DNA of 43,101 nt from Phycisphaera sp. GTDB lineage: Bacteria; Planctomycetota; Phycisphaerae; Phycisphaerales; Phycisphaeraceae. The translations under genes and the position numbers were made by a program. Shown here piece by piece: positions 2,353 through 12,027 of this stretch; position 1 is the stretch's first letter, and the number at the start of each line of letters is the position of its first letter. The notes below the pieces were generated by a model. That model worked only from the letters and a program-made list of their open reading frames with translations, had not been told where the DNA came from and ran no database searches. Location of the stretch: positions 1 through 43,101 of the forward strand of contig JANQPR010000056.1 of the NCBI GenBank assembly GCA_028285385.1, read 5' to 3'.

Positions 2353-3228
2353 TTAGCGAGGAGCTTCAAAGTCCTCGGGGCCGAATCCGTTTCCAAACTG
2401 GATATCTGTCATCTGCTGGTCGATCCAGACTGCCTTGGGGTCCACATCGCCGTCCCAGGACAAGGCGGGTGTGTACCGACGGGCAACGGGGAGCTGGATG
2501 TCGCCAAAGCGTTGGTAGCTGACTTCCATCAGGACCGGGTCGGTGATCCCAAAATCCACGACCGTGAAGAGGAATCGATCGACGCGGTGGGTCTCGGGGT
2601 GGATGTAGAGGTAGTAGGTGTCGGACTGGGCACCTTCGGGCATGTCAAAGGTCATCTCGACGACCTCGTAGGCCACGCCGTTGACTTCACGGGTGCCCTT
2701 GTACCGGTGGGTCGTGCCGGGGTCACTTAGCTTGTGCATCATCGAAAACCAGTAGAAGTTGGTTTTGCGGATGAACTGGGCCAAGCCCACCGCTTGCGGT
2801 TCCGCGACCACCTGGCCGTTGAGCGTGGTCCACGCGCTTTCACCATCCCAACCCTGGACGACGGCACCCTCTTGGTCGGGGAAGACGAACTTCTTGTGGT
2901 GATGCGGAGCGTAGCTGCCCCAGGACAGCTCGCCGTCGAAGAGATACCGCTCCGTCGAGATGTCCGACGTGAAGGTGTTGTTGTCGCGGAAGACGTAGGT
3001 GTACTGCACGTCGCCTTTGGCTTGGAGGTCGGCGTAGCTGCCCACGGCCGCGGCTACTTTGCCGATCAGCTCTGTAGCCTTAGCGTCCGAGGCGCGATCG
3101 GCCGCTTGGGCCTGCGGTCCGAGCGTGGCGACGAGCGCCGCCGCGAGCAAGGCCATTCGCACGATGAAGGCTTGTGGTGTGGTTTGGGTCCGGGTCAAAG
3201 CGATCCGTTGGGTCGATTCGTTAAACAT
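2353..3228 (-). CDS. Secreted DUF6503-like protein (LolA/LolB-like fold)
   Basis: A 291-residue protein with a signal peptide (hydrophobic 'MALLAAALVATLG' around residues 25-37, cleavage near 'AQAAD'), so probably periplasmic. The body alternates hydrophobic strands ('YTYVFRD', 'ERYLFDGELSWG', 'VVQGWDGESAWT', 'YYLYIHPETHRVDRFLFTV') as in beta-rich, lipoprotein-carrier-like domains. The segment 'HKLSDPGTTHRYKGTREVNG' resembles DUF6503. The family function is unknown. The ATG at 3228 has a strong AAGGAG nine bases upstream. It is the last gene of the presumed four-gene operon, 88 bases after the alpha/beta hydrolase, and is followed by a terminator. Confidence 0.7.
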   Translation of the reverse strand: MFNESTQRIALTRTQTTPQAFIVRMALLAAALVATLGPQAQAADRASDAKATELIGKVAAAVGSYADLQAKGDVQYTYVFRDNNTFTSDISTERYLFDGELSWGSYAPHHHKKFVFPDQEGAVVQGWDGESAWTTLNGQVVAEPQAVGLAQFIRKTNFYWFSMMHKLSDPGTTHRYKGTREVNGVAYEVVEMTFDMPEGAQSDTYYLYIHPETHRVDRFLFTVVDFGITDPVLMEVSYQRFGDIQLPVARRYTPALSWDGDVDPKAVWIDQQMTDIQFGNGFGPEDFEAPR

Positions 3229-3316: not shown

Positions 3317-4195
3317 CTACCTGAGTTTTTGGAGGAAGCTACGGATCAGCGGAACGACCGCCGGGGCGTCTTCTTCCAGAACAAAATGACCGGTGTCGAA
3401 CAGGTGGAACTCGGGGCGATCGAGGTGCTGCCGATACGCCTCGGCTCCCGCTTCGATGAAGATGGGATCACGCTTGCCCCACGCGATCAGCGTCGGCGGC
3501 TGGTTGTCTTTCAGGAACGATTGCCATTGCGGATATAGGTCGACATTCGTCCGGTAGTCGTAGAACAGGTCGAGCTGCATCCGCGTCTGGCCGGGACGGG
3601 CAAGTCGAGCCAGGTCAAGGGCCCAGTTGTCCGGGTTGATGCCTTCGGGGTTGCGGGTCCCTTGGGTGTACTGCCACTTCACCCCTTCGGGGCTCATGAG
3701 CTGGTTGGCGATCGCCGTTTCCTTCTCGGCGGTGCGGTCCTCCCAGTAGCTGCGAACCGGGGCAGAGGCCTCGGGGTCGAAGCCCTCCTCGTAGGCATTG
3801 CCGTTCATCACGATCAGGCCCTTCACACGGTCGGGGTGCTGGGTCGCAAGCCGGAAGCCGACCGGAGCGCCGTAGTCCTGCATGCCCAGGACCCATTCGG
3901 TGATGCCCTTCTGTTCCAAGAGAGCACCGACAGTCTCGGCGAGGCGGTCGAAGGTGTACTCGTAGATCTCGGGGTCCGGGAAGTCGCTGTTGCCGAAGCC
4001 GGGGTAGTCGGGGGCGATCAGGTAGTGCTCGTCGCCGAGCTGATCGAGGACCGCCCGGTACATGTGGGAGGAGGCGGGGAAGCCGTGGAGCAACACGACG
4101 GCTTGCTTACCTGGCTTTCCGGCTTCGCGGAAGAAGACGTTGACGCCATCAACCTCTTCGGTGCCGTCTCTAACGCGTGTAAAGTCGATGGACAT
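3317..4195 (-). CDS. Alpha/beta hydrolase of the haloalkane dehalogenase / epoxide hydrolase group
   Basis: A 292-residue alpha/beta-hydrolase. The HGFP oxyanion motif is at residues 37-40. The nucleophile elbow 'GMQDYG' gives Asp107, not Ser. The acid is likely Asp243 in 'GKRDPIF' and the base His270 in 'DTGHF'. An Asp nucleophile is the mark of haloalkane dehalogenases and epoxide hydrolases, which act through an ester intermediate, rather than of esterases. A halide-binding pair cannot be assigned, so dehalogenase and epoxide hydrolase remain open. The ATG at 4195 is preceded by AAGGA. It is third in the CMD-peroxiredoxin-hydrolase-DUF6503 operon, suggesting removal of reactive electrophilic compounds in the cytoplasm. 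Confidence 0.85.
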   Translation of the reverse strand: MSIDFTRVRDGTEEVDGVNVFFREAGKPGKQAVVLLHGFPASSHMYRAVLDQLGDEHYLIAPDYPGFGNSDFPDPEIYEYTFDRLAETVGALLEQKGITEWVLGMQDYGAPVGFRLATQHPDRVKGLIVMNGNAYEEGFDPEASAPVRSYWEDRTAEKETAIANQLMSPEGVKWQYTQGTRNPEGINPDNWALDLARLARPGQTRMQLDLFYDYRTNVDLYPQWQSFLKDNQPPTLIAWGKRDPIFIEAGAEAYRQHLDRPEFHLFDTGHFVLEEDAPAVVPLIRSFLQKLR

Positions 4196-4304
4196 CGGAG
4201 TCTTCCTTTGCGATCAAGGGATGCTTGTGTTCATGGTGAAAGTCGCCTTCGCAGCGTGGGCGACTGCAATCCAGCTCGCCCACGCTGCGAAAACGCGTGT
4301 CGGC

Positions 4305-4973
4305 TTAGGCGTGTTGAGCCTCTGCCGGGGCAAGGTTCTGGACCACCGCCAGCACGTCTTCGGGGTTTGCACGCGTCGTGTAGTCGGGATCGACGTGCGA
4401 GAACGCGATCGTGCCGTCGGTGTCGATCACCAAGGTGGCCGGGATCGGCAGATCGAACTGGCCGGCACCGTTGAACTTCTCGAGGTCACCCCCCAGTTCG
4501 GCGTAGATCGGGCGGAGCTGTTCGGGAAGCGAGAACGCGAGGCCGAGTTGCTTGGCGTACTCGGCGCCGACATCGGAGAGTACCTCGAATTCAAGCTCGT
4601 TCTTCTCGATGGTGGACAGCGAGTTGTCGGGCAGTTCGGGAGTGATCGCGACCAACCGGGCCCCGGCGGCCGTGAGCTGCGGAAGCTGCTGTTGATAAGC
4701 CCTCAGTTCGAGGTTGCAGTAAGGGCACCAGCCACCGCGGTAGAAAACGATGACAACCGGTCCGGACGCGCGGAGGTCTTCGAGCCGTCGCTGCTGACCG
4801 GATGCGTTGGGCAGTGAGAAATCCTTGATCTGCTGATCGACCTTCGGGGCACCGTCAACGATCCCCGAGGCGTTGAGCTGCTCGATGGAGTCGGCGAATT
4901 GATCCGTCACCTCCTTGGGGAAGTTTTCGAGGACGTGGGCTTTGAGGTCGGCGAGTTCTTGAGTAAGTGACAT
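4305..4973 (-). CDS. Peroxiredoxin-like AhpC/TSA-family protein (PRX-like2 type)
   Basis: A 222-residue thioredoxin-fold protein. The active-site stretch 'FYRGGWCPYC' holds Cys83 and Cys86 at the end of a central strand, as in the PRX-like2 branch of the AhpC/TSA superfamily. It lacks the classic PxxxT/SxxC context of true AhpC. About 45 helical residues precede the domain. The role is probably reduction of peroxides or thiol-disulfide exchange, perhaps with the AhpD-like protein encoded upstream as reductant (inference). I chose the ATG at 4973, which has an AAGGAG nine bases upstream, over the longer open frame. It lies 59 bases after the AhpD-like gene. Confidence 0.85.
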   Translation of the reverse strand: MSLTQELADLKAHVLENFPKEVTDQFADSIEQLNASGIVDGAPKVDQQIKDFSLPNASGQQRRLEDLRASGPVVIVFYRGGWCPYCNLELRAYQQQLPQLTAAGARLVAITPELPDNSLSTIEKNELEFEVLSDVGAEYAKQLGLAFSLPEQLRPIYAELGGDLEKFNGAGQFDLPIPATLVIDTDGTIAFSHVDPDYTTRANPEDVLAVVQNLAPAEAQHA

Positions 4974-5032: not shown

Positions 5033-5596
5033 TCAGCTCGCCGCGTCTTCGGGGCTCCAAGCCATCGGCTGGAAGCCCTTGTCCAGGGGCGGGTTGACGA
5101 TGTGCGTCGTGTAGTTGGAGAGCACCTTGAGGCTCGTGCCCACGATCACTTCCAGAACCGTCTGCTTGGTGTAGCCGGCCGCAATGAACTCCTCGACCTG
5201 CTCTTCGGTGGCCCAGCCACGCGACTCGTTGACGATCTCGGCGAACTTGCGGAGGGCTTCGAGTTTGGGATCGGCGATAGGCGTGCCGGCACGCAACGCT
5301 TCGAGCACGTCTGCGTCCATGCCCTGCATCTTGGCCACGGTCGAGTGAGCGGCCATGCAGTAGGTGCAACCGTTCAGGCGGTTGTTCGTCATGAGAATGA
5401 TCTCACGCTCGGTCGGGCTGAGATCGGTCTTCTCGAACAGGCCCATCATGGTGAGGTAGGCCTCAACCTGAACGGGAGCTTCGGCCATGGTGGCCATGAG
5501 GTTGGGGACGAAACCCATCTTCTTCTGGACGGTTTCCAGGATGGGTTTCGAGGCTTCGGGGGCGGTTTCTACGGTGTATTGGATGTAAGTCGTCAT
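5033..5596 (-). CDS. Carboxymuconolactone decarboxylase / AhpD-like protein
   Basis: A 187-residue all-helical protein of the CMD/AhpD superfamily. The active-site motif is 'CTYCMAAH': Cys77 and Cys80 as a CxxC pair with His84, preceded by a conserved Glu64 in 'TEREIILM', as in AhpD, where this set drives peroxidase and thiol relay chemistry. The start at 5596 has AGAGG at a good distance. It is the first gene of the operon and directly downstream of a cluster of TetR-type operators. Likely role: alkylhydroperoxidase-type redox partner in the cytoplasm. True carboxymuconolactone decarboxylase activity is unlikely because the CxxC pair is present. Confidence 0.87.
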   Translation of the reverse strand: MTTYIQYTVETAPEASKPILETVQKKMGFVPNLMATMAEAPVQVEAYLTMMGLFEKTDLSPTEREIILMTNNRLNGCTYCMAAHSTVAKMQGMDADVLEALRAGTPIADPKLEALRKFAEIVNESRGWATEEQVEEFIAAGYTKQTVLEVIVGTSLKVLSNYTTHIVNPPLDKGFQPMAWSPEDAAS

Positions 5597-5653
5597 GGTT
5601 TCCTCTTTGGGGTTGGGGTTGAAGTTCCTGGCCGGCGAGATCACCTCGCAATT

Positions 5654-5671
5654 TTGTACCGATTGGTCAAA
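5654..5671 (+). promoter_or_regulatory. TetR-type operator O1
   Basis: TTGTACCGATTGGTCAAA, with a central ACCGATTGGT inverted repeat, lies 58 bases upstream of the AhpD-like start. Three further copies are near (5728-5746, 5757-5774, 6439-6458). This distribution around a TetR gene and its neighbour operon is the usual sign of an autoregulatory operator. Confidence 0.75.
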
Positions 5672-5727
5672 ACTTGATCGTAGTAATCAAGCAGTTTTCT
5701 CAGGATTCACCTTACCTTTCGCATTTA

Positions 5728-5746
5728 TTTGACCACTCGGTACAAA
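5728..5746 (-). promoter_or_regulatory. TetR-type operator O2
   Basis: On the minus strand this reads TTTGTACCGAGTGGTCAAA, matching O1 at 16 of 17 central bases but in the opposite orientation. It lies between the TetR stop codon and the AhpD-like gene. Confidence 0.72.
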
Positions 5747-5756
5747 CTATATCGTG

Positions 5757-5774
5757 TCTAAACCGGTCGGTCAA
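5757..5774 (+). promoter_or_regulatory. TetR-type operator O3
   Basis: Contains AAACCGGTCGGTCAAT, with ACCGGTCGGT at its centre. It is the weakest match in the flanks and lies 11 bases from O2, so two dimers could bind next to each other. Confidence 0.6.
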
Positions 5775-5811
5775 TACCATCTCAAAAAAATAACATGCCG
5801 CGCTGACCGGC

Positions 5812-6393
5812 TTACGCGACGAGACGGACAGCCTCCCGACCAATGACTTCGAGCTGTGACCGGTCGTACGCCCCGCGCCCCAGCAGGCGGATCGCCACCA
5901 TCAGACTGAACAGCGTCTTCGCCGTGGCCTGCGGCTCAACAGACGCGGGAATGTCACCACGCGCCTGCCCCACCTCGATGCAGCGGCGGAAAAACGCTTC
6001 CACGTGCTTCATGGAGTTCACCACAATACGCTTGACCTCGTCGCTGTGACCCCCGATATCCCCAGCGGTATTCACGATGAAACACCCGCGTTTTTCTGGA
6101 TCATCTGCCGACGACGCTACCAGATCTCCAAAAAACCGCTCGATAGCGGCCTTCGGGTCATCCATTGCCTCCAGCTCCGACAGATAAGCGCTGCGGGCTT
6201 GCGTGTCGTAGCGGACAAGGGCCTGGGTAAACAGGTCTTGCTTGCCCTTGAAGGCGTTGTACAGGCTCCCTTTGTTGATGCCCGTCGCCTCGATCAGGTC
6301 GGCAAGAGAAGTCGAGTCGTAACCCTTCTTCATGAAGACGGCCATTGCACTGTCGAGTACGTCGGCCTCATCAAATGATTTTTCCCAAGGCAT
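5812..6393 (-). CDS. TetR/AcrR-family transcriptional regulator
   Basis: A 193-residue repressor. The N-terminal HTH (about residues 8-54) reads 'VLDSAMAVFMKKGYDSTSLADLIEATGINKGSLYNAFKGKQDLF', the canonical TetR recognition region with the 'GINKGSLYNAF' recognition helix. The C-terminal helical domain has 'KRGCFIVNTAGDI', with a cysteine often seen in electrophile-sensing members (such as the NemR/AcrR type), but ligand sensing is inference. The ATG at 6393 has a perfect AAAGGAGG six bases upstream. It is transcribed toward the AhpD-peroxiredoxin-hydrolase operon, and shared ACCGATTGGT-type sites lie both upstream of it and in front of the operon. Confidence 0.9.
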   Translation of the reverse strand: MPWEKSFDEADVLDSAMAVFMKKGYDSTSLADLIEATGINKGSLYNAFKGKQDLFTQALVRYDTQARSAYLSELEAMDDPKAAIERFFGDLVASSADDPEKRGCFIVNTAGDIGGHSDEVKRIVVNSMKHVEAFFRRCIEVGQARGDIPASVEPQATAKTLFSLMVAIRLLGRGAYDRSQLEVIGREAVRLVA

Positions 6394-6438
6394 GCATGGC
6401 CTCCTTTCTCATAGCTTGTATCGGCATTATAGCACGTG

Positions 6439-6458
6439 TTTAAACCGATTGGTATAAA
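6439..6458 (+). promoter_or_regulatory. TetR-type operator O4 (tetR promoter)
   Basis: TTTAAACCGATTGGTATAAA, with the same ACCGATTGGT core as O1, lies 46 bases upstream of the TetR start within an AT-rich promoter-like region. This fits autorepression. Confidence 0.72.
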
Positions 6459-6609: not shown

Positions 6610-7830
6610 CTACTCCAACGCTCGGCATTCTCGCCGAAGCGGATTGGCCAAGCCGCCCCGTCGCTCGACGGTGATACCCGAAAGCCCCAGCCAATCGGCG
6701 AGTTTTCGTAGCTCCTTGGCCAATTCGATCGCCGTGTCGCTTGGCGCACTGTCTTCAAGATGCGCCGCCTTCACCCGAAGCGTGTCACCTTGGCGATCCG
6801 CCTTGAGGTCTACGCGGGCGACAAGTGCTTCATCCATCAGAAACGGCAAGACGTAGTAGCCATGGACACGCTTTGCGGCGGGCACATAGATCTCCAGCCG
6901 GAAACGCATCCCAAAGAGGCGTTCGGTACGGTCACGGGTCCAGATGAGCGGATCGAACGGGCAGAGCAAAGCGCGTGAAGCAACTTGACGCGGAACCCGT
7001 GTTTTCGGAGCGGTGTACGCATCGGGCCAACCCTCGATACAGATAGGCATGGCATCGCCGGATTCGATCAACTCGGCGAGGCGGGCTCGGGCATCTGCGA
7101 CAGGGAATCGGAGATAGTCGCGGAGGTCTTTTTCGGTAGCGATGCCCAAGGCAACCAACGCACGGCGGAGTAGTTCACGCTGCGCGTCCTCACGGCTCGG
7201 AGTAGATGATTGGGCGATGGTATCGGGCAGAACTCGCTCGGTGATGTCGTAGACGCGCTCAAAAGTACTACGACGAGTATGGGTGCTCACAAGACCCGCC
7301 CAGAAGAGCCATTCGATCGCACGCTTGCCTTCAGACCAGCCCCACCATGAACCTCGAGAACTTCCGCCATAAGTTAACTCACCCGCTGAGAGCGGACCAC
7401 ACTTCTCGATCTCAACCAGGACCGCGTCGATGAACTTCGCGTTCTCTTTGCGGAAGCGCACAAGGCCGCCATAGATGCCAGACCCGGCACGGGCATCCTC
7501 CATCCGCCACTGCCAGAGCGGGTAGGTTTCGACGGGTAGCAAAGATGCTTCATGCCCCCAGTACTCAAACAATCGACGACGCTGCCCATCGTACACCGCA
7601 CGATGCAGGGCTTTGGGGTCGTAGGCACCCAACCGCGTATATAGAGTCAAGAGATGCGCCCGCGCCAGGACATTCACCGAATCGATTTGCACGATACCCA
7701 ATTGCTGGACGACAGAGCCAATCTTACGAGCCGTGACTGAGCGTTGCGAGGGAGATGGCGGTTGCTGTAGACCTTGAGCGGTGATTGCGACACGGCGGGC
7801 TTCGGAGAGCGAAAGATGATTTCGCGGCAT
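6610..7830 (-). CDS. YcaQ/AlkZ-like winged-helix DNA glycosylase
   Basis: A 406-residue protein of the HTH_42 (YcaQ/AlkZ) superfamily, made of tandem winged helices that open crosslinked or alkylated DNA. The catalytic motif is seen as 'GIVQIDSVNVLARAH', giving Gln48-Ile-Asp50, i.e. the QxD form of the YcaQ branch rather than QxQ of AlkZ. Other family marks are 'LFEYWGHEASLLP' and 'CPFDPLIWTRDRTERLFGMRFRLEIYVPAAKRVHGYYVLPFL' (in part). Such enzymes excise bulky or crosslinked purine adducts, such as nitrogen-mustard lesions. The start at 7830 lacks a strong RBS. It sits between two redox/electrophile operons, which suits repair of alkylation damage. Confidence 0.88.
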   Translation of the reverse strand: MPRNHLSLSEARRVAITAQGLQQPPSPSQRSVTARKIGSVVQQLGIVQIDSVNVLARAHLLTLYTRLGAYDPKALHRAVYDGQRRRLFEYWGHEASLLPVETYPLWQWRMEDARAGSGIYGGLVRFRKENAKFIDAVLVEIEKCGPLSAGELTYGGSSRGSWWGWSEGKRAIEWLFWAGLVSTHTRRSTFERVYDITERVLPDTIAQSSTPSREDAQRELLRRALVALGIATEKDLRDYLRFPVADARARLAELIESGDAMPICIEGWPDAYTAPKTRVPRQVASRALLCPFDPLIWTRDRTERLFGMRFRLEIYVPAAKRVHGYYVLPFLMDEALVARVDLKADRQGDTLRVKAAHLEDSAPSDTAIELAKELRKLADWLGLSGITVERRGGLANPLRRECRALE

Positions 7831-7888: not shown

Positions 7889-8242
7889 CTATTGCTCAGA
7901 AGCAACCTCTTCGGCCTGCTTGCGTGCTTTGAATACGCTGCCCCATTGCTGCATCTGTTCAAGAATCTCTTTTAGCGAGCGCCCAAAATCCGTGAGTTCA
8001 TACTCGACCCGCGGGGGAACTTCGGGATAGACGTGGCGTGCAACCACACCATCGGCTTCGAGTTCACGGAGTTGTAGCGTGATCATCCGCTCGGTGGCGT
8101 TGGGGGTCAGGCGACGAAGTTCGCCAAAGCGCTTTCGTCCCCCCAACAAATGACACAGCAGCACCGGCTTCCACCGGCCACCCATCACGCTAAGGGTTGC
8201 TTCCACGTCGCAACCCGTCTTCCAGTTGTATTTCCGTGTCAT
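7889..8242 (-). CDS. HxlR-family (DUF24) transcriptional regulator
   Basis: A 117-residue winged-helix regulator: 'CDVEATLSVMGGRWKPVLLCHLLGGRKRFGELRRL' followed by 'ERMITLQLRELEADGVVARHVYPEVPPRVEYELTDFGRSL', the full HxlR/MarR-like wing. The N-terminal cysteine in 'TGCDVEATL' matches the single redox-sensing Cys of YodB/HypR/QorR-type members, so sensing of quinones, aldehydes or disulfide stress is likely (family inference). I chose the ATG at 8242 since homology starts there; an in-frame TTG at 8272 is an alternative. It diverges from a quinone-reductase-containing operon, its probable target. Confidence 0.88.
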   Translation of the reverse strand: MTRKYNWKTGCDVEATLSVMGGRWKPVLLCHLLGGRKRFGELRRLTPNATERMITLQLRELEADGVVARHVYPEVPPRVEYELTDFGRSLKEILEQMQQWGSVFKARKQAEEVASEQ

Positions 8243-8272
8243 GGGCTTGGTTCCCGGCGGGATAACTTCCAA

Positions 8273-8301
8273 TACTTACAAAAATGTGGGTACTTGTCAA
8301 A
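8273..8301 (+). promoter_or_regulatory. Possible HxlR operator (TACTT direct repeats)
   Basis: Two similar strings, TACTTACAAAA at 8273 and TACTTGTCAAAA at 8291, are spaced 18 bases apart in the short divergent region between the HxlR gene and the enoyl-CoA hydratase operon. DUF24 regulators such as YodB and QorR bind AT-rich sites containing TACTT/AAGTA elements. The position is right, but the symmetry is poor. Confidence 0.4.
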
Positions 8302-8355
8302 ATAAAATTATGACATAGTCTACTCAGCATTCAACCCCAAACACAAGGAACTCCT

Positions 8356-9201
8356 ATGAGTTACGACAACTTCACGACGTTCAAGACGCATATCGAAGAT
8401 TCGGTCATGTGGGTGACCTTCGATTTCCCGCCGGTCAATGTCCAGGGGCAGGAGATGCTGGCCGACCTCAACAGCCTCGCCTTAAGGCTCGAACGCGATG
8501 GCAACATCAAGGTCGTGGTTTTCCAGTCGGCCAACCCGGAGATCTGGGTCTGCCACTACGACACGAACCTCTTAAAGGACATGTCCACCGAAGCGGTGTC
8601 GCGTGACGAGGCGAAGCTGCTCGACCTCCAATCGGTGTGTGAACGCATCAGCAAGCTGCCCCAGGCCACAATTGCCAAGCTCGAAGGCTTTGCCCGGGGC
8701 GGCGGTCATGAACTCGCTTTGGCGCTAGACATGCGCTTTGCCGCTCGAGGAAAGTTCAAGTTCATGCAGATGGAAGTCGGCATGGGCATCCTGCCTTGCG
8801 GCGGCGGGGCTTCGCGCATGGCTCGGCAGGTTGGCCTGGGCCGGGCTTTGGAGATCATCCTCAGCGCCCGCGACTTCACCGCCGAGGAAGCCGAGGCCTA
8901 CGGCACGGTCAACAAGGTGCTTGAGCCTGATGAGATCGGTGAGTATGTCGACAACCTCGCCAAGCGGATCGCCAAGTTCCCCGCCGGGTCGATCAACGCC
9001 TGCAAGCAGATGGTCTACGAATCGATCGACAAGCCGATCGACGAAGCGCTCAAGGCCGAGGCGTATTGGCTCTACCAGGCCACCAGTAAGACTCCTGCTG
9101 TCAAGCGTTTCCAGATCGCCGATGACAAGGGCTTGGAGCACGATCTAGAGAACCAGCGCAACTGGAACGATCTGGTCATGGGCGTTCAAGAAATCCAGTA
9201 A
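8356..9201 (+). CDS. Enoyl-CoA hydratase/isomerase (crotonase) family protein
   Basis: A 281-residue crotonase-fold protein. The oxyanion-hole/active-site segment 'GFARGGGHELALALDMRFAA' contains Glu119, and 'FMQMEVGMGILPCGGGASRM' contains Glu140; the pair matches the two catalytic glutamates of enoyl-CoA hydratase. Residue 66 onward has 'CHYDTNLLKDM' where most family members have an acyl-CoA A-F/A-D loop, so the substrate may be unusual. The ATG at 8356 has AAGGA upstream. It is the first gene of a tight operon with an MDR, an LLM oxidoreductase and an SDR, with 32 bases to the next gene. A CoA-ester substrate is not proven, and a detoxification role is inferred from context. Confidence 0.85.
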   Translation: MSYDNFTTFKTHIEDSVMWVTFDFPPVNVQGQEMLADLNSLALRLERDGNIKVVVFQSANPEIWVCHYDTNLLKDMSTEAVSRDEAKLLDLQSVCERISKLPQATIAKLEGFARGGGHELALALDMRFAARGKFKFMQMEVGMGILPCGGGASRMARQVGLGRALEIILSARDFTAEEAEAYGTVNKVLEPDEIGEYVDNLAKRIAKFPAGSINACKQMVYESIDKPIDEALKAEAYWLYQATSKTPAVKRFQIADDKGLEHDLENQRNWNDLVMGVQEIQ

Positions 9202-9233
9202 ACGAAATCCTTAGTAATACAAGGGAATCAAAG

Positions 9234-10220
9234 ATGAAAGCCATGTTGATTAACAACTACGGCCCAGATGCTGTTTTCGAGGCCGCCGAGATTGAGAAGC
9301 CCAAGGCCGAGGCTGGCCAGGTGCTGGTTAAGATCGCCGCGTCGAGCGTGAACACGGTGGACACGATGATCCGCACCATGGGCAACGACCTGCCGCTGTC
9401 ACCCGACACCCCCGCAATCCTGGGGATGGATTTTGCGGGCACAGTCGAAGCCATCGGCGAAGGTGTCGAGGGCTACGCCGTGGGCGATGAGGTCTACGGC
9501 TGCGCCGGCGGCCTGGCCGACTTGCCTGGCACCTTGGCCGAGTACATCGCGGCAGACAGTAAGCTGATCGCGCCCAAACCCAAGAACCTGTCGATGGCCG
9601 AAGCCGCGGCGCTGCCGCTGGTGGTAATCACGGCCTACGAAGGGCTGAAGCGGGCGGGCATCGCCGCGGGTCAGAAGGTCTTGGTCCACGGCGGTTCAGG
9701 CGGCGTGGGCCACGTCGCGTTGCAGCTTGCCAAGCACTGGGGGGCCGACGTCTACGCCACGGGCGGCGGCGACAAGCAGCTCGCACTGATCGAGCAACTC
9801 GGCGCCACCCCCATCAACTACAAGACCGAGTCCGTCGAGGACTATGTCGCCCAGCACACTAGTGGCGCAGGCTTCGACATCGTGTACGACTCGGTGGGCG
9901 GGGCCAACATGGCCAACTCGTTCGAAGCCGCGGCCCTCAATGGCCAGGTCGCCTCGACCGTGTCGATGTGCGAACTCGACCTGACCACCGCCCACTTCAA
10001 GGGTATATCGCTGCACGTAGTCTTCATGCTGATCCCGATGCTGCACAATCACAAACGCGAGGAGCACGCCGCGATCCTGCGCGACGTGGCGAGTATCGCC
10101 GAGGCCGGTGGGCTCAAACCTGTGCTCGACGAACCAACGTTTTCGCTGGATCAGGCCGGCGAAGCCCACGCCCGACTCGAGAGCAAGAAGGGCATGGGCA
10201 AGGTCGTGATCGAGAACTGA
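9234..10220 (+). CDS. Zinc-free MDR: quinone oxidoreductase-like NADPH dehydrogenase
   Basis: A 328-residue medium-chain reductase. The N-terminal GroES-like domain ('AASSVNTVDTMIR', 'LGMDFAGTVEAIGEGVEG', 'VGDEVYG') leads to a Rossmann domain with 'VHGGSGGVGHVALQLAK' around residue 151; the GGxGGVG form suits NADPH. The structural and catalytic zinc ligands of alcohol dehydrogenases are absent, as in quinone oxidoreductases/zeta-crystallins. It probably reduces quinones or reactive enones in the cytoplasm. Its RBS is AGGGAA. It overlaps operonically with the next gene (3-base spacing) and lies under the presumed HxlR regulator, a pairing known for QorR/YodB systems. Confidence 0.9.
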   Translation: MKAMLINNYGPDAVFEAAEIEKPKAEAGQVLVKIAASSVNTVDTMIRTMGNDLPLSPDTPAILGMDFAGTVEAIGEGVEGYAVGDEVYGCAGGLADLPGTLAEYIAADSKLIAPKPKNLSMAEAAALPLVVITAYEGLKRAGIAAGQKVLVHGGSGGVGHVALQLAKHWGADVYATGGGDKQLALIEQLGATPINYKTESVEDYVAQHTSGAGFDIVYDSVGGANMANSFEAAALNGQVASTVSMCELDLTTAHFKGISLHVVFMLIPMLHNHKREEHAAILRDVASIAEAGGLKPVLDEPTFSLDQAGEAHARLESKKGMGKVVIEN

Positions 10221-10223
10221 ATC

Positions 10224-11195
10224 ATGACCACGACCGCCGCGTTGCCAACCCGCTTCCCCAGCCTCAATCAAGGCTACAACCGTGTGTTCCGCGCGGGGAA
10301 GCTGTCTCTCGGTTTGGTCGTGCCCGTCGTGGAGTACACCCAGTCGCGCGTGCCCGACATGCACGACCAGGTTCGGCGTATCCAACTCGCCGAGAGTTTG
10401 GGTTTCACGGCCGTCTGGCTGCGCGATGTGCCGTTTGATGTGCCGTCGTTCGGTGACGCGGGTCAGCTGTACGACCCGTTTGTCTACCTCGGCCTATTAG
10501 CGGGCCAGACCGAAACAATCTCGCTGGGCGTGGCGAGCATCATCCTGCCGCTGCGCCATCCGGCTCACGTCGCTAAGGCAGCAGCGAGCGTTGATGCTTT
10601 GTCAGGGGGTCGCCTCATCCTCGGCGTGGCGTCGGGCGACCGCCCGGACGAGTACCCCGCCCTCAACATCCCCTACGAGCAGCGTAGCCAACGCTTCCGT
10701 GAAAGCTTCGCGTACATCCGCAAGATGAGTGAAGCCGCCCCGGTGTTCGACAACGACTTCGGCAACTCGCTTAGCGGGATCGACATGCTGCCTAAGCCCA
10801 GCGCCGGCTCACTCCCACTTTTGGTCACCGGCGGTAGCCAGCAAGACCCCGGGTGGATCGCCAAGCACGGCGACGGCTGGATGATTTACCCGCGCGACCC
10901 CGATCCCCAAGCGTCAGTCATCCGTGATTGGCAACAACGCGTTCAAGACGCGGGCAGACCACCACAGCCTGTCATGCAGCCGGTCTACATCGATCTGGCG
11001 GATGATCCGGACACGCCGCCCGAGCCGATCCACCTCGGGATGCGGCTGGGCATGAAGTACCTGATCGATTACGCCCATAATTTGGAAGCCATCGGCGTGA
11101 ACCATCTGGCGTTGAACTTGCGGTTCAACCAGGCCGACATCGAGGCCACACTGAAGCGCCTTGCCGGCGAACTGCTTCCCCACTTCACCGACTGA
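10224..11195 (+). CDS. Luciferase-like (LLM class) flavin-dependent oxidoreductase
   Basis: A 323-residue TIM-barrel flavoenzyme: 'DQVRRIQLAESLGFTAVWLRDVPF', 'YDPFVYLGLLAGQTETISLGVASIILPLRHPAHVAKAAASVDALSGGRLILGVASGDRPDEY' (in part) and 'DGWMIYPRD' are the hallmark strands of bacterial LLM proteins. It binds FMN or F420; which one cannot be read from the sequence. The substrate is unknown. It begins three bases after the MDR stop, so the two are translationally linked. In this operon it would serve as an additional oxidoreductase for small electrophiles (inference). Confidence 0.88.
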   Translation: MTTTAALPTRFPSLNQGYNRVFRAGKLSLGLVVPVVEYTQSRVPDMHDQVRRIQLAESLGFTAVWLRDVPFDVPSFGDAGQLYDPFVYLGLLAGQTETISLGVASIILPLRHPAHVAKAAASVDALSGGRLILGVASGDRPDEYPALNIPYEQRSQRFRESFAYIRKMSEAAPVFDNDFGNSLSGIDMLPKPSAGSLPLLVTGGSQQDPGWIAKHGDGWMIYPRDPDPQASVIRDWQQRVQDAGRPPQPVMQPVYIDLADDPDTPPEPIHLGMRLGMKYLIDYAHNLEAIGVNHLALNLRFNQADIEATLKRLAGELLPHFTD

Positions 11196-11217
11196 ACTCT
11201 CAATCCAGAACTCCGCT

Positions 11218-12027
11218 ATGCCCAAGACCATCCTCCTCACCGGCGCAACCGACGGCATCGGCCTGGCCACCGCGAAGATGCTCGCGCCCCTGGGACACCA
11301 CCTGCTGCTCCATGGCCGAAGTGTCGCCAAGCTCGAACAAACCCAAGAGCAAGTCTCCGCGCTGCGTGGCGCAGGGAGCGTCGAAACCTACGCGGCCGAC
11401 CTGTCGGACATCAAGCAGGTCGATACGTTCGCGCAGACGATCACGGATAAGCATTCGTCGCTGGATGTACTGGTCAACAACGCGGGTGTGTTTATGGCCT
11501 CTACCACCGTCACTCCCGAGGGGCTGGATATCCGCTTCGCCGTGAACACAATCGCTCCGTATCGGCTCACCACACGACTGTCGTCTCTGATGGGCCCAGG
11601 CAGCCGTGTGATCAACCTATCGTCTGCCGCCCAGGCCAAGGTCGATCTCCGCGCCCTAGCGGGTCAGAACAGACGCCCGTTGTCAGACAACGAAGCCTAT
11701 GCCCAGAGCAAACTCGCGATCACCATGTGGTCCAACCACCTCGCTGCGCTCTATCAGGACGACGGGCCGATCGTTGTCGCGGTCAACCCCGGATCGCTGC
11801 TGGGCAGCAAAATGGTTCACGAAGCCTACGGCATGGCGGGCGGCGACCTCCAGATCGGAGCCGACATCCTGACCCGCGCCGCGCTGTCCGAAGAGTTCGC
11901 CCACGCCAACGGCAAGTACTTCGACAACGACTCGGGCCAATTCGCACGACCGCACCCTGATGCACTTGATCCGGAGAAATCTCAAGCACTTACTGATGTC
12001 ATTGAAAAGGTCTTGGCCGATCGGTAG
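11218..12027 (+). CDS. Short-chain dehydrogenase/reductase (SDR)
   Basis: A 269-residue classical-type SDR. The cofactor motif TGATDGIG is at residues 8-15, NNAG at 87-90, catalytic Ser135/136 in 'NLSSAAQ', and Tyr161-x3-Lys165 in 'YAQSKLA'. The Arg at 34 ('LHGRS') after strand 2 suggests NADP(H). It resembles the retinol dehydrogenase-like/oxidoreductase branch of SDRs. The ATG at 11218 was chosen because the Rossmann strand begins directly after it. It is the last gene of the four-gene operon, 22 bases after the LLM gene, and ends in TAG. Its probable role is carbonyl reduction. Confidence 0.9.
   Translation: MPKTILLTGATDGIGLATAKMLAPLGHHLLLHGRSVAKLEQTQEQVSALRGAGSVETYAADLSDIKQVDTFAQTITDKHSSLDVLVNNAGVFMASTTVTPEGLDIRFAVNTIAPYRLTTRLSSLMGPGSRVINLSSAAQAKVDLRALAGQNRRPLSDNEAYAQSKLAITMWSNHLAALYQDDGPIVVAVNPGSLLGSKMVHEAYGMAGGDLQIGADILTRAALSEEFAHANGKYFDNDSGQFARPHPDALDPEKSQALTDVIEKVLADR

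Follow-up and report, generated by a model that had tools for sequence, protein, structure and literature searches.

A candidate thiol-sensing TetR repressor and its palindromic operators at an ahpD-peroxiredoxin locus of Phycisphaera sp.

The tetR gene carried by the window, by which is meant the whole stretch of 43,101 nucleotides of Phycisphaera sp. DNA that was analysed, is accompanied by four copies of a 20-bp palindrome, and it is probable, judging from comparison with related loci, that its product is an autoregulated sensor of electrophiles or oxidants which works through a thiol and represses ahpD and a peroxiredoxin gene, perhaps with a hydrolase gene, by way of these palindromes. 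In the mechanism proposed, a TetR dimer resembling CifR and NemR would bind the 20-bp palindrome TTTagACCGATCGGTctAAA, with one dimer over the -35 region of the tetR promoter, beside an extended -10, giving autorepression. Two further dimers, 30 bp apart, would flank the -10 of the ahpD promoter, the first over the -35 and the second over the transcription start, with a third candidate site in the ahpD leader. An oxidant or electrophile would then react with Cys104, the dimers would leave the DNA, and AhpD and the peroxiredoxin (perhaps the hydrolase also) would be produced for as long as the agent persists. We favour modification of one thiol as the means of release because NemR and AltR work through such cysteines (PMC7464077, PMC13178969). 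The features concerned are listed in Table 1.

Table 1. Features of the tetR-ahpD locus, with positions in the window
Feature	Position	Strand	Basis or remark
tetR, 193 aa, TetR_N and TetR_C_13, Cys104 and Cys138	5812..6393	minus	Pfam, alignment, structure model
Extended -10 of tetR, TGCTATAAT	6426..6434	minus	read from sequence; partly conserved in L093 and L058
Putative operator in tetR promoter	6439..6458		24.0 bits, rank 2; overlaps expected -35 region
Putative operator O1, ahpD promoter	5757..5776		18.7 bits, rank 3; contains -35 TTGACC
-35 TTGACC of ahpD promoter	5769-5774	minus	outer arm of operator 5757-5776
-10 TATAGT of ahpD promoter	5746..5751	minus	promoter scan; between O1 and O2
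Putative operator O2, 30 bp from O1	5727..5746		18.4 bits, rank 4; over expected transcription start
Putative operator O3, ahpD leader	5653..5672		25.1 bits, rank 1; L093 counterpart 13.5 bits
ahpD-like CMD gene with CTYCMAAH	5033..5596	minus	Pfam, motif
AhpC/TSA peroxiredoxin-like gene with CPYC	4305..4973	minus	Pfam, motif
Perfect 16-bp inverted repeat, 12-nt loop	4248..4291	minus	separates the peroxiredoxin and hydrolase genes; not followed by a U-tract
alpha/beta hydrolase gene, like haloalkane dehalogenases/epoxide hydrolases (QDYG, HGFP)	3317..4195	minus	Pfam
Weakly DUF6503-like gene, possible last gene	2353..3228	minus	22.7 bits, cut-off 22.9

Four palindromes and the operator motif

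The operator motif was derived from relatives of the locus, the set of 42 loci consisting of the window, 37 loci from named genomes and four from genomes of the same class. An EM search with palindromic symmetry imposed was run from 60 random starts on the 170 bases preceding tetR, with 34 loci as the training set and the other eight (the window, L093, L094 and L129-L133) left out. The palindrome TTTagACCGATCGGTctAAA was returned in the eight best runs listed, with a log-likelihood of 273.7 compared with 34-38 in five shuffled controls, which were given 10 starts each against 60 for the real set. In 32 of the 34 training relatives the best site starts 58-73 bases before the tetR start codon. 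Sites of at least 13 bits are concentrated at these loci, with 98 in the 68.5 kb around tetR and 15 in the 407 kb farther off, training sites included.

All four of the sequences that an earlier note on this DNA had picked out by inspection are found in the window, as parts of the 20-mers of Table 1, and the matrix from the relatives, in which the window had no part, places them first to fourth in the 43-kb window at 25.1, 24.0, 18.7 and 18.4 bits. The next best score, with the hxlR and ech-qor genes included in the scan, is 5.7 bits, which is 12.6 bits under rank 4. The positions given in the earlier note hold, except that the sequence it quoted for the tetR promoter, AAACCGATTGG, begins at 6442 whilst the full 20-mer begins three bases before it, at 6439; its consensus ACCGRNYGGT fits as well, with the site at 5727-5746 fitting on the minus strand only. 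Conservation of the operator columns between the window and L093 is moderate, at 54 of 80 compared with 157 of 338 other columns, a few of which are coding.

How specific these sites are depends on how much of the palindrome is considered. The core ACCGRNYGGT occurs as 427 strand matches (221 forward, 206 reverse) in the 4.42-Mb draft genome, 1.8 times the 236 matches (108 + 128) of its reversed control, and within the window this core or the looser ACCGNNYGGT has 13 matches, counted by strand, where 5.4 would be expected. The 10-bp consensus is thus not specific on its own, and as a genome-wide marker it was rejected. An abundant core also lends some credit to the idea that copies of a frequent motif have simply come together here by chance, yet four core matches within 805 bp have a Poisson probability of about 1e-6 given the genome frequency of ACCGRNYGGT. 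As an independent matrix ranks the same four sites first, as the full operator is rare elsewhere and as the same layout is found at tetR relatives of other phyla, a chance cluster is hardly credible.

The pattern WACCGRNYGGTHWWW, which was built from the four sites, matches these four places alone in the genome with zero mismatches, and at one mismatch a further 64 places compared with 45 for the control. The relatives' matrix was used because this test is circular, the pattern having been drawn from the sites themselves. The palindrome TTTNNACCGATCGGTNNAAA, at up to 3 mismatches, occurs at 9 places in the genome (control 2), four of which are the sites described here; the other five all have 3 mismatches and all lie inside open reading frames of 90 aa or more. 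The earlier note had held a widespread motif to be the point that would tell against its proposal, and whilst the core is widespread, the full operator, with its 9 places, is not. The genome-wide scan for further targets that it recommended gave no further promoter site, and hence no wider regulon, with the mismatch patterns used. Among 397 genomes of the class, 15 have a match to the operator at up to 1 mismatch and 7 have one match to the reversed control. Two such places are found in this genome and G002 only, all at the tetR locus, the 13 others having one; G058 (with locus L093), G348 and G158 carry tetR and have no operator at up to 1 mismatch.

Promoter architecture and the paired operators

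The earlier note had proposed that the regulator controls the operon as well as its own gene, and the placement of the sites favours this, with one candidate operator at the -35 region of the tetR promoter and three between tetR and ahpD, a layout that recurs in relatives. A promoter scan of the region gave TTGACC-17-TATAGT at 5774-5746, the one promoter-like site found where 0.8 would be expected. A candidate intrinsic terminator between tetR and ahpD was not significant (z -1.1).

The two closest operators look like a functional pair, judging by how the arrangement is kept at other loci. When pairs of sites at 13 bits within 150 bp were collected from the 42 loci, 21 of 41 were spaced 28-30 bp apart, these coming from 18 loci, and four of the 21 lie 1.5-4.3 kb from tetR. 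The spacing is nearly constant, being 28-30 bp and once 32 (in L127, which is not among the 21). For 20 of the 21 pairs (overlapping L110 matches were dropped) the -35 and -10 were located by searching -35 offsets of 0-5 and spacers of 16-18. The best -35 falls at offset 2 of the first operator in all 20, reading TTGACC in 16, TTGACT in 3 and TTAACC in 1; in 17 of 20 a -10 agrees with the consensus at 4 or more of its 6 bases, although, given the ranges searched, this counts for less than the unvarying position of the -35. The inner arm of the first operator, by eye, reads TTGAC in none of the 20, and a Fisher test sets 19/20 outer arms against 0/20 inner arms, with counts made by eye and a p-value that ignores relatedness. 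That the outer arm is kept at the -35 consensus with the inner arm free is a sign of a double role.

The cooperative binding suggested by the earlier note does not follow from the spacing of 28-30 bp, because promoter geometry could also set it. Were geometry the whole explanation the dimers would bind independently, and we regard this as evenly balanced: in the pairs examined the -35 lies inside O1 and the -10 in the gap, and the sequences are related rather than independent, yet the TetRs of 17 of the 18 paired-site loci have a median identity of 59% and the spacing still stays at 28-30 bp, once 32.

The TetR protein and its cysteine

The product of tetR matches PF00440 at 56.2 bits (cut-off 24) and PF16925 at 54.1 bits (cut-off 27); in NCBIfam 15 models matched it below their cut-offs, none of them named NemR. 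The AF2 model has a mean pLDDT of 92, and its best Foldseek match is CifR on operator DNA, at 26-27% identity. In VIA-align CifR (Z 21.7), PA2196 (3rd3, 21.4) and NemR (20.9) are tied, and phmmer puts 2i10 above CifR. The earlier note had spoken of a TetR/NemR/AcrR type; by alignment and predicted fold, CifR and NemR appear to be closer to the protein, among known regulators, than AcrR is.

In the alignment all 42 proteins carry Cys104, which shares its column with NemR Cys106; with four distant proteins left out it is the sole cysteine in 22 of 38. From the aligned ranges we infer that it corresponds to CifR Cys107. The column of NemR Lys175, the partner of Cys106 in that protein, holds arginine in 39 of 42 proteins (Arg173 in the window TetR), and NemR Cys21 and Cys116 have no counterpart, those columns holding Phe20 and Gly114, so that the chemistry of NemR cannot simply be transferred.

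A different reading keeps the binding of the TetR to these operators but has a non-covalent ligand, such as an epoxide, a haloalkane or another hydrophobic compound, as inducer, with Cys104 being structural. Its appeal is that CifR, the best Foldseek match, is released by epoxides (PMC8244358), and that a hydrolase of the epoxide hydrolase/dehalogenase class is present in the cluster and in several relatives. It sits poorly with a cysteine that is invariant in 42 of 42 proteins and the only one in 22 of 38, and with linked genes that are mostly those of thiol or peroxide enzymes. The corresponding CifR cysteine has moreover been changed in a crystal structure, going by the title of the entry, and the two ideas are not exclusive. 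We consider induction by a ligand of this kind unlikely, and the thiol sensor is retained as the preferred reading.

Candidate target genes and the hairpin

The earlier note placed the hydrolase in the operon with ahpD and the peroxiredoxin gene; the ahpD-peroxiredoxin part of this stands, and the hydrolase gene, which a hairpin of great stability precedes, is perhaps not fully co-transcribed. The 16-bp hairpin has a predicted energy of -45 kcal/mol (z -6.2) and is unique in the genome, and because it precedes the hydrolase gene the membership of that gene is uncertain; it may be only partly in the operon.

Control may be divided in two, with the TetR governing only tetR, ahpD and the peroxiredoxin gene, the hairpin stopping or weakening transcription and the hydrolase and the downstream gene being expressed on their own. 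The strength and uniqueness of the hairpin speak for this, as does the matrix scan of the window, which gave no operator before the hydrolase gene. Set against it are the lack of a U-tract after the hairpin and the gaps of just 29 and 74 bp before the SDR and hydrolase genes of L093, and on balance we lean somewhat away from such a division, possible as it is.

Other features of the window

An AlkZ-like DNA glycosylase gene (6610-7830) lies directly upstream of tetR on the same strand, and an ORF on the plus strand at 825-1544 has a translation that by eye is GIY-YIG nuclease-like (YVYRLIDPRNGETFYVGKG), a putative assignment. At 7889-12027 a regulator of HxlR type, with an RrpB match below the cut-off, is divergent from a row of enoyl-CoA hydratase-, quinone-reductase-, luciferase- and SDR-like genes, which is possibly a second redox island, one without a site of this TetR. 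Alteromonadaceae M269 (L123) and Planctomycete K23_9 (L124) have relatives of this island too, no more than about 7 kb from the tetR of each, the identities for L123/L124 being SDR 56% and luciferase-like 63%; quinone-reductase-like 79%.

Relatives and probable spread of the locus

The closest arrangement is that of L093 (genome G058, from another family of the class), which has tetR-ahpD-prx-SDR-hydrolase with four sites in the same layout, the four genes that it has in common with the window being 84, 85, 79 and 70% identical. Its SDR gene occupies the place of the 4248-4291 hairpin of the window. L058 (G002, same family) has tetR-ahpD and three sites, again in the same layout, and in the one other genome of the genus searched there is no close tetR. 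A FastTree tree with NemR as its root places the TetRs of the window and L093 beside those of the gammaproteobacterial L100, L107 and L113 (support 0.80), apart from the proteins of Planctomycetes. This placement, together with the gap in the genus, suggests horizontal transfer, and the locus was probably acquired from Pseudomonadota.

Of the 41 relatives, 20 have an ahpD-like gene no farther than 1.6 kb from tetR; in the other 21 none was found at that distance, and one of these has such a gene at 2.3 kb. When 20 neighbour genes in relatives were scanned with Pfam, these included glutathione transferases (L118, L123, L127), SDRs (L093, L102, L103, L116), HAD hydrolases (L102, L114), AhpC-TSA proteins (L103, L123, L124), an alpha/beta hydrolase (L103) and a CMD protein (L104), as well as RND-type adaptors (L117, L120) and a DUF3500 protein and porin (L119), which are not detoxification enzymes; one L124 neighbour had no Pfam family. 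For the greater part the neighbours are thiol, electrophile or peroxide enzymes. By BLAST a hydrolase gene adjoins ahpD in L095, L125, L126 and L128, and L095 has one weak site only.

Paired operators also occur away from tetR, in L101 (2224-2273) directly before an ahpD-like gene and in L123 (4140-4478) between divergent peroxiredoxin and GST genes; judged by these sites, both distant pairs are candidate small regulons of their genomes. L103 has an additional operator pair. The distant relatives L059 and L061-L065 (28-34% identity) keep tetR-ahpD, and their scanned flanks contain no exact ACC[GA]NN[CT]GGT core; a palindrome like TGGAATA...TATTCCA can be seen by eye. A switch of operator in these relatives was considered and not sustained, as the relatives' matrix gives all six of them 13.3-20.5 bits in one flank. 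L066-L069 score low, under 10 bits.

A wider reading is that this is a distinct TetR subfamily, mostly with one or two cysteines, that has spread with its operators between Pseudomonadota and Planctomycetes and their relatives. Interchangeable AhpD, GST, SDR, HAD and peroxiredoxin genes would be under its control by way of a promoter cassette that is portable, in which the first operator includes the -35, the -10 occupies the gap and another operator, at a distance of 28-30 bp, lies over the start. The cassette would be a tight lock opened through one thiol, with a chemistry unlike that of NemR because arginine stands in place of the lysine. We put this forward tentatively, as marginally less probable than its contrary.

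Comparison with known systems

NemR of Escherichia coli (nemR-nemA-gloA) represses its own operon and responds to electrophiles and HOCl (PMC7464077). It shares with the window TetR the TetR fold (Z 20.9) and a cysteine in the Cys104 column, Cys106, and in its 5-kb locus the relatives' matrix scores best upstream of nemR, at ACTAGACCGACTGGTCTACT (12.5 bits, next 6.6). It differs in having 18% identity, other target genes and one site where there are four here; nemA and gloA are absent from the window locus, the genes being ahpD, peroxiredoxin and hydrolase. CifR of Pseudomonas aeruginosa governs an operon that includes an alpha/beta epoxide hydrolase gene, and is the best Foldseek and top tied VIA-align match, with the GC of the sensor region aligned. 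Its divergent cif operon includes morB and MFS genes (PMC8244358), whereas the window locus, with tetR on the same strand as the genes beside it, has neither, and AhpD and peroxiredoxin instead.

AltR of Pantoea ananatis, a TetR that regulates itself, has a single conserved cysteine, Cys100, which is essential, and it answers to thiosulfinates, not to NEM, diamide or H2O2 (PMC13178969), so that having this cysteine in common does not fix the inducer. Its operator, CAATCTAC-N6-GTAGATTG, and its genes differ from those here. In related allicin tolerance clusters of Pseudomonas ahpD is a main resistance gene (PMC7119367). DitR of Stenotrophomonas maltophilia is a thiol-sensing TetR with several boxes over the -35, -10 and start of its target promoter (PMC9342713), much as proposed here. 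Its boxes are CATACnnnnnGTATG, its cysteines two and its targets MFS genes, in which it differs.

TTHB023 (PfmR) of Thermus thermophilus is a TetR that presumably belongs to fatty acid or phenylacetate metabolism. It binds CTGACCGATCGGTCAG at about 2 nM (PMC7022988), a sequence with the same core as here and outer arms of CTG instead of TTT, and 3vpr is among the fold matches. A TetR-pqi locus of Acidovorax (PMC4204640) was rejected as a counterpart as its genes are others.

The kind of system is already known. Among the papers that the literature searches listed, none described this branch, with the close double site in its promoter, nor this TetR subfamily or this operator at a tetR-ahpD locus. 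The analysis offers an operator code that can be tested, and a residue that may be the sensor, for a group of TetRs found across phyla, and it connects enzymes of AhpD type, for which the natural trigger is in many cases unclear, with thiol-reactive stress. Being compact, the cassette of operators and promoter might be of use as a tight sensor part. In this the analysis adds to the picture gained from NemR, AltR, CifR and DitR, and overturns none of it.
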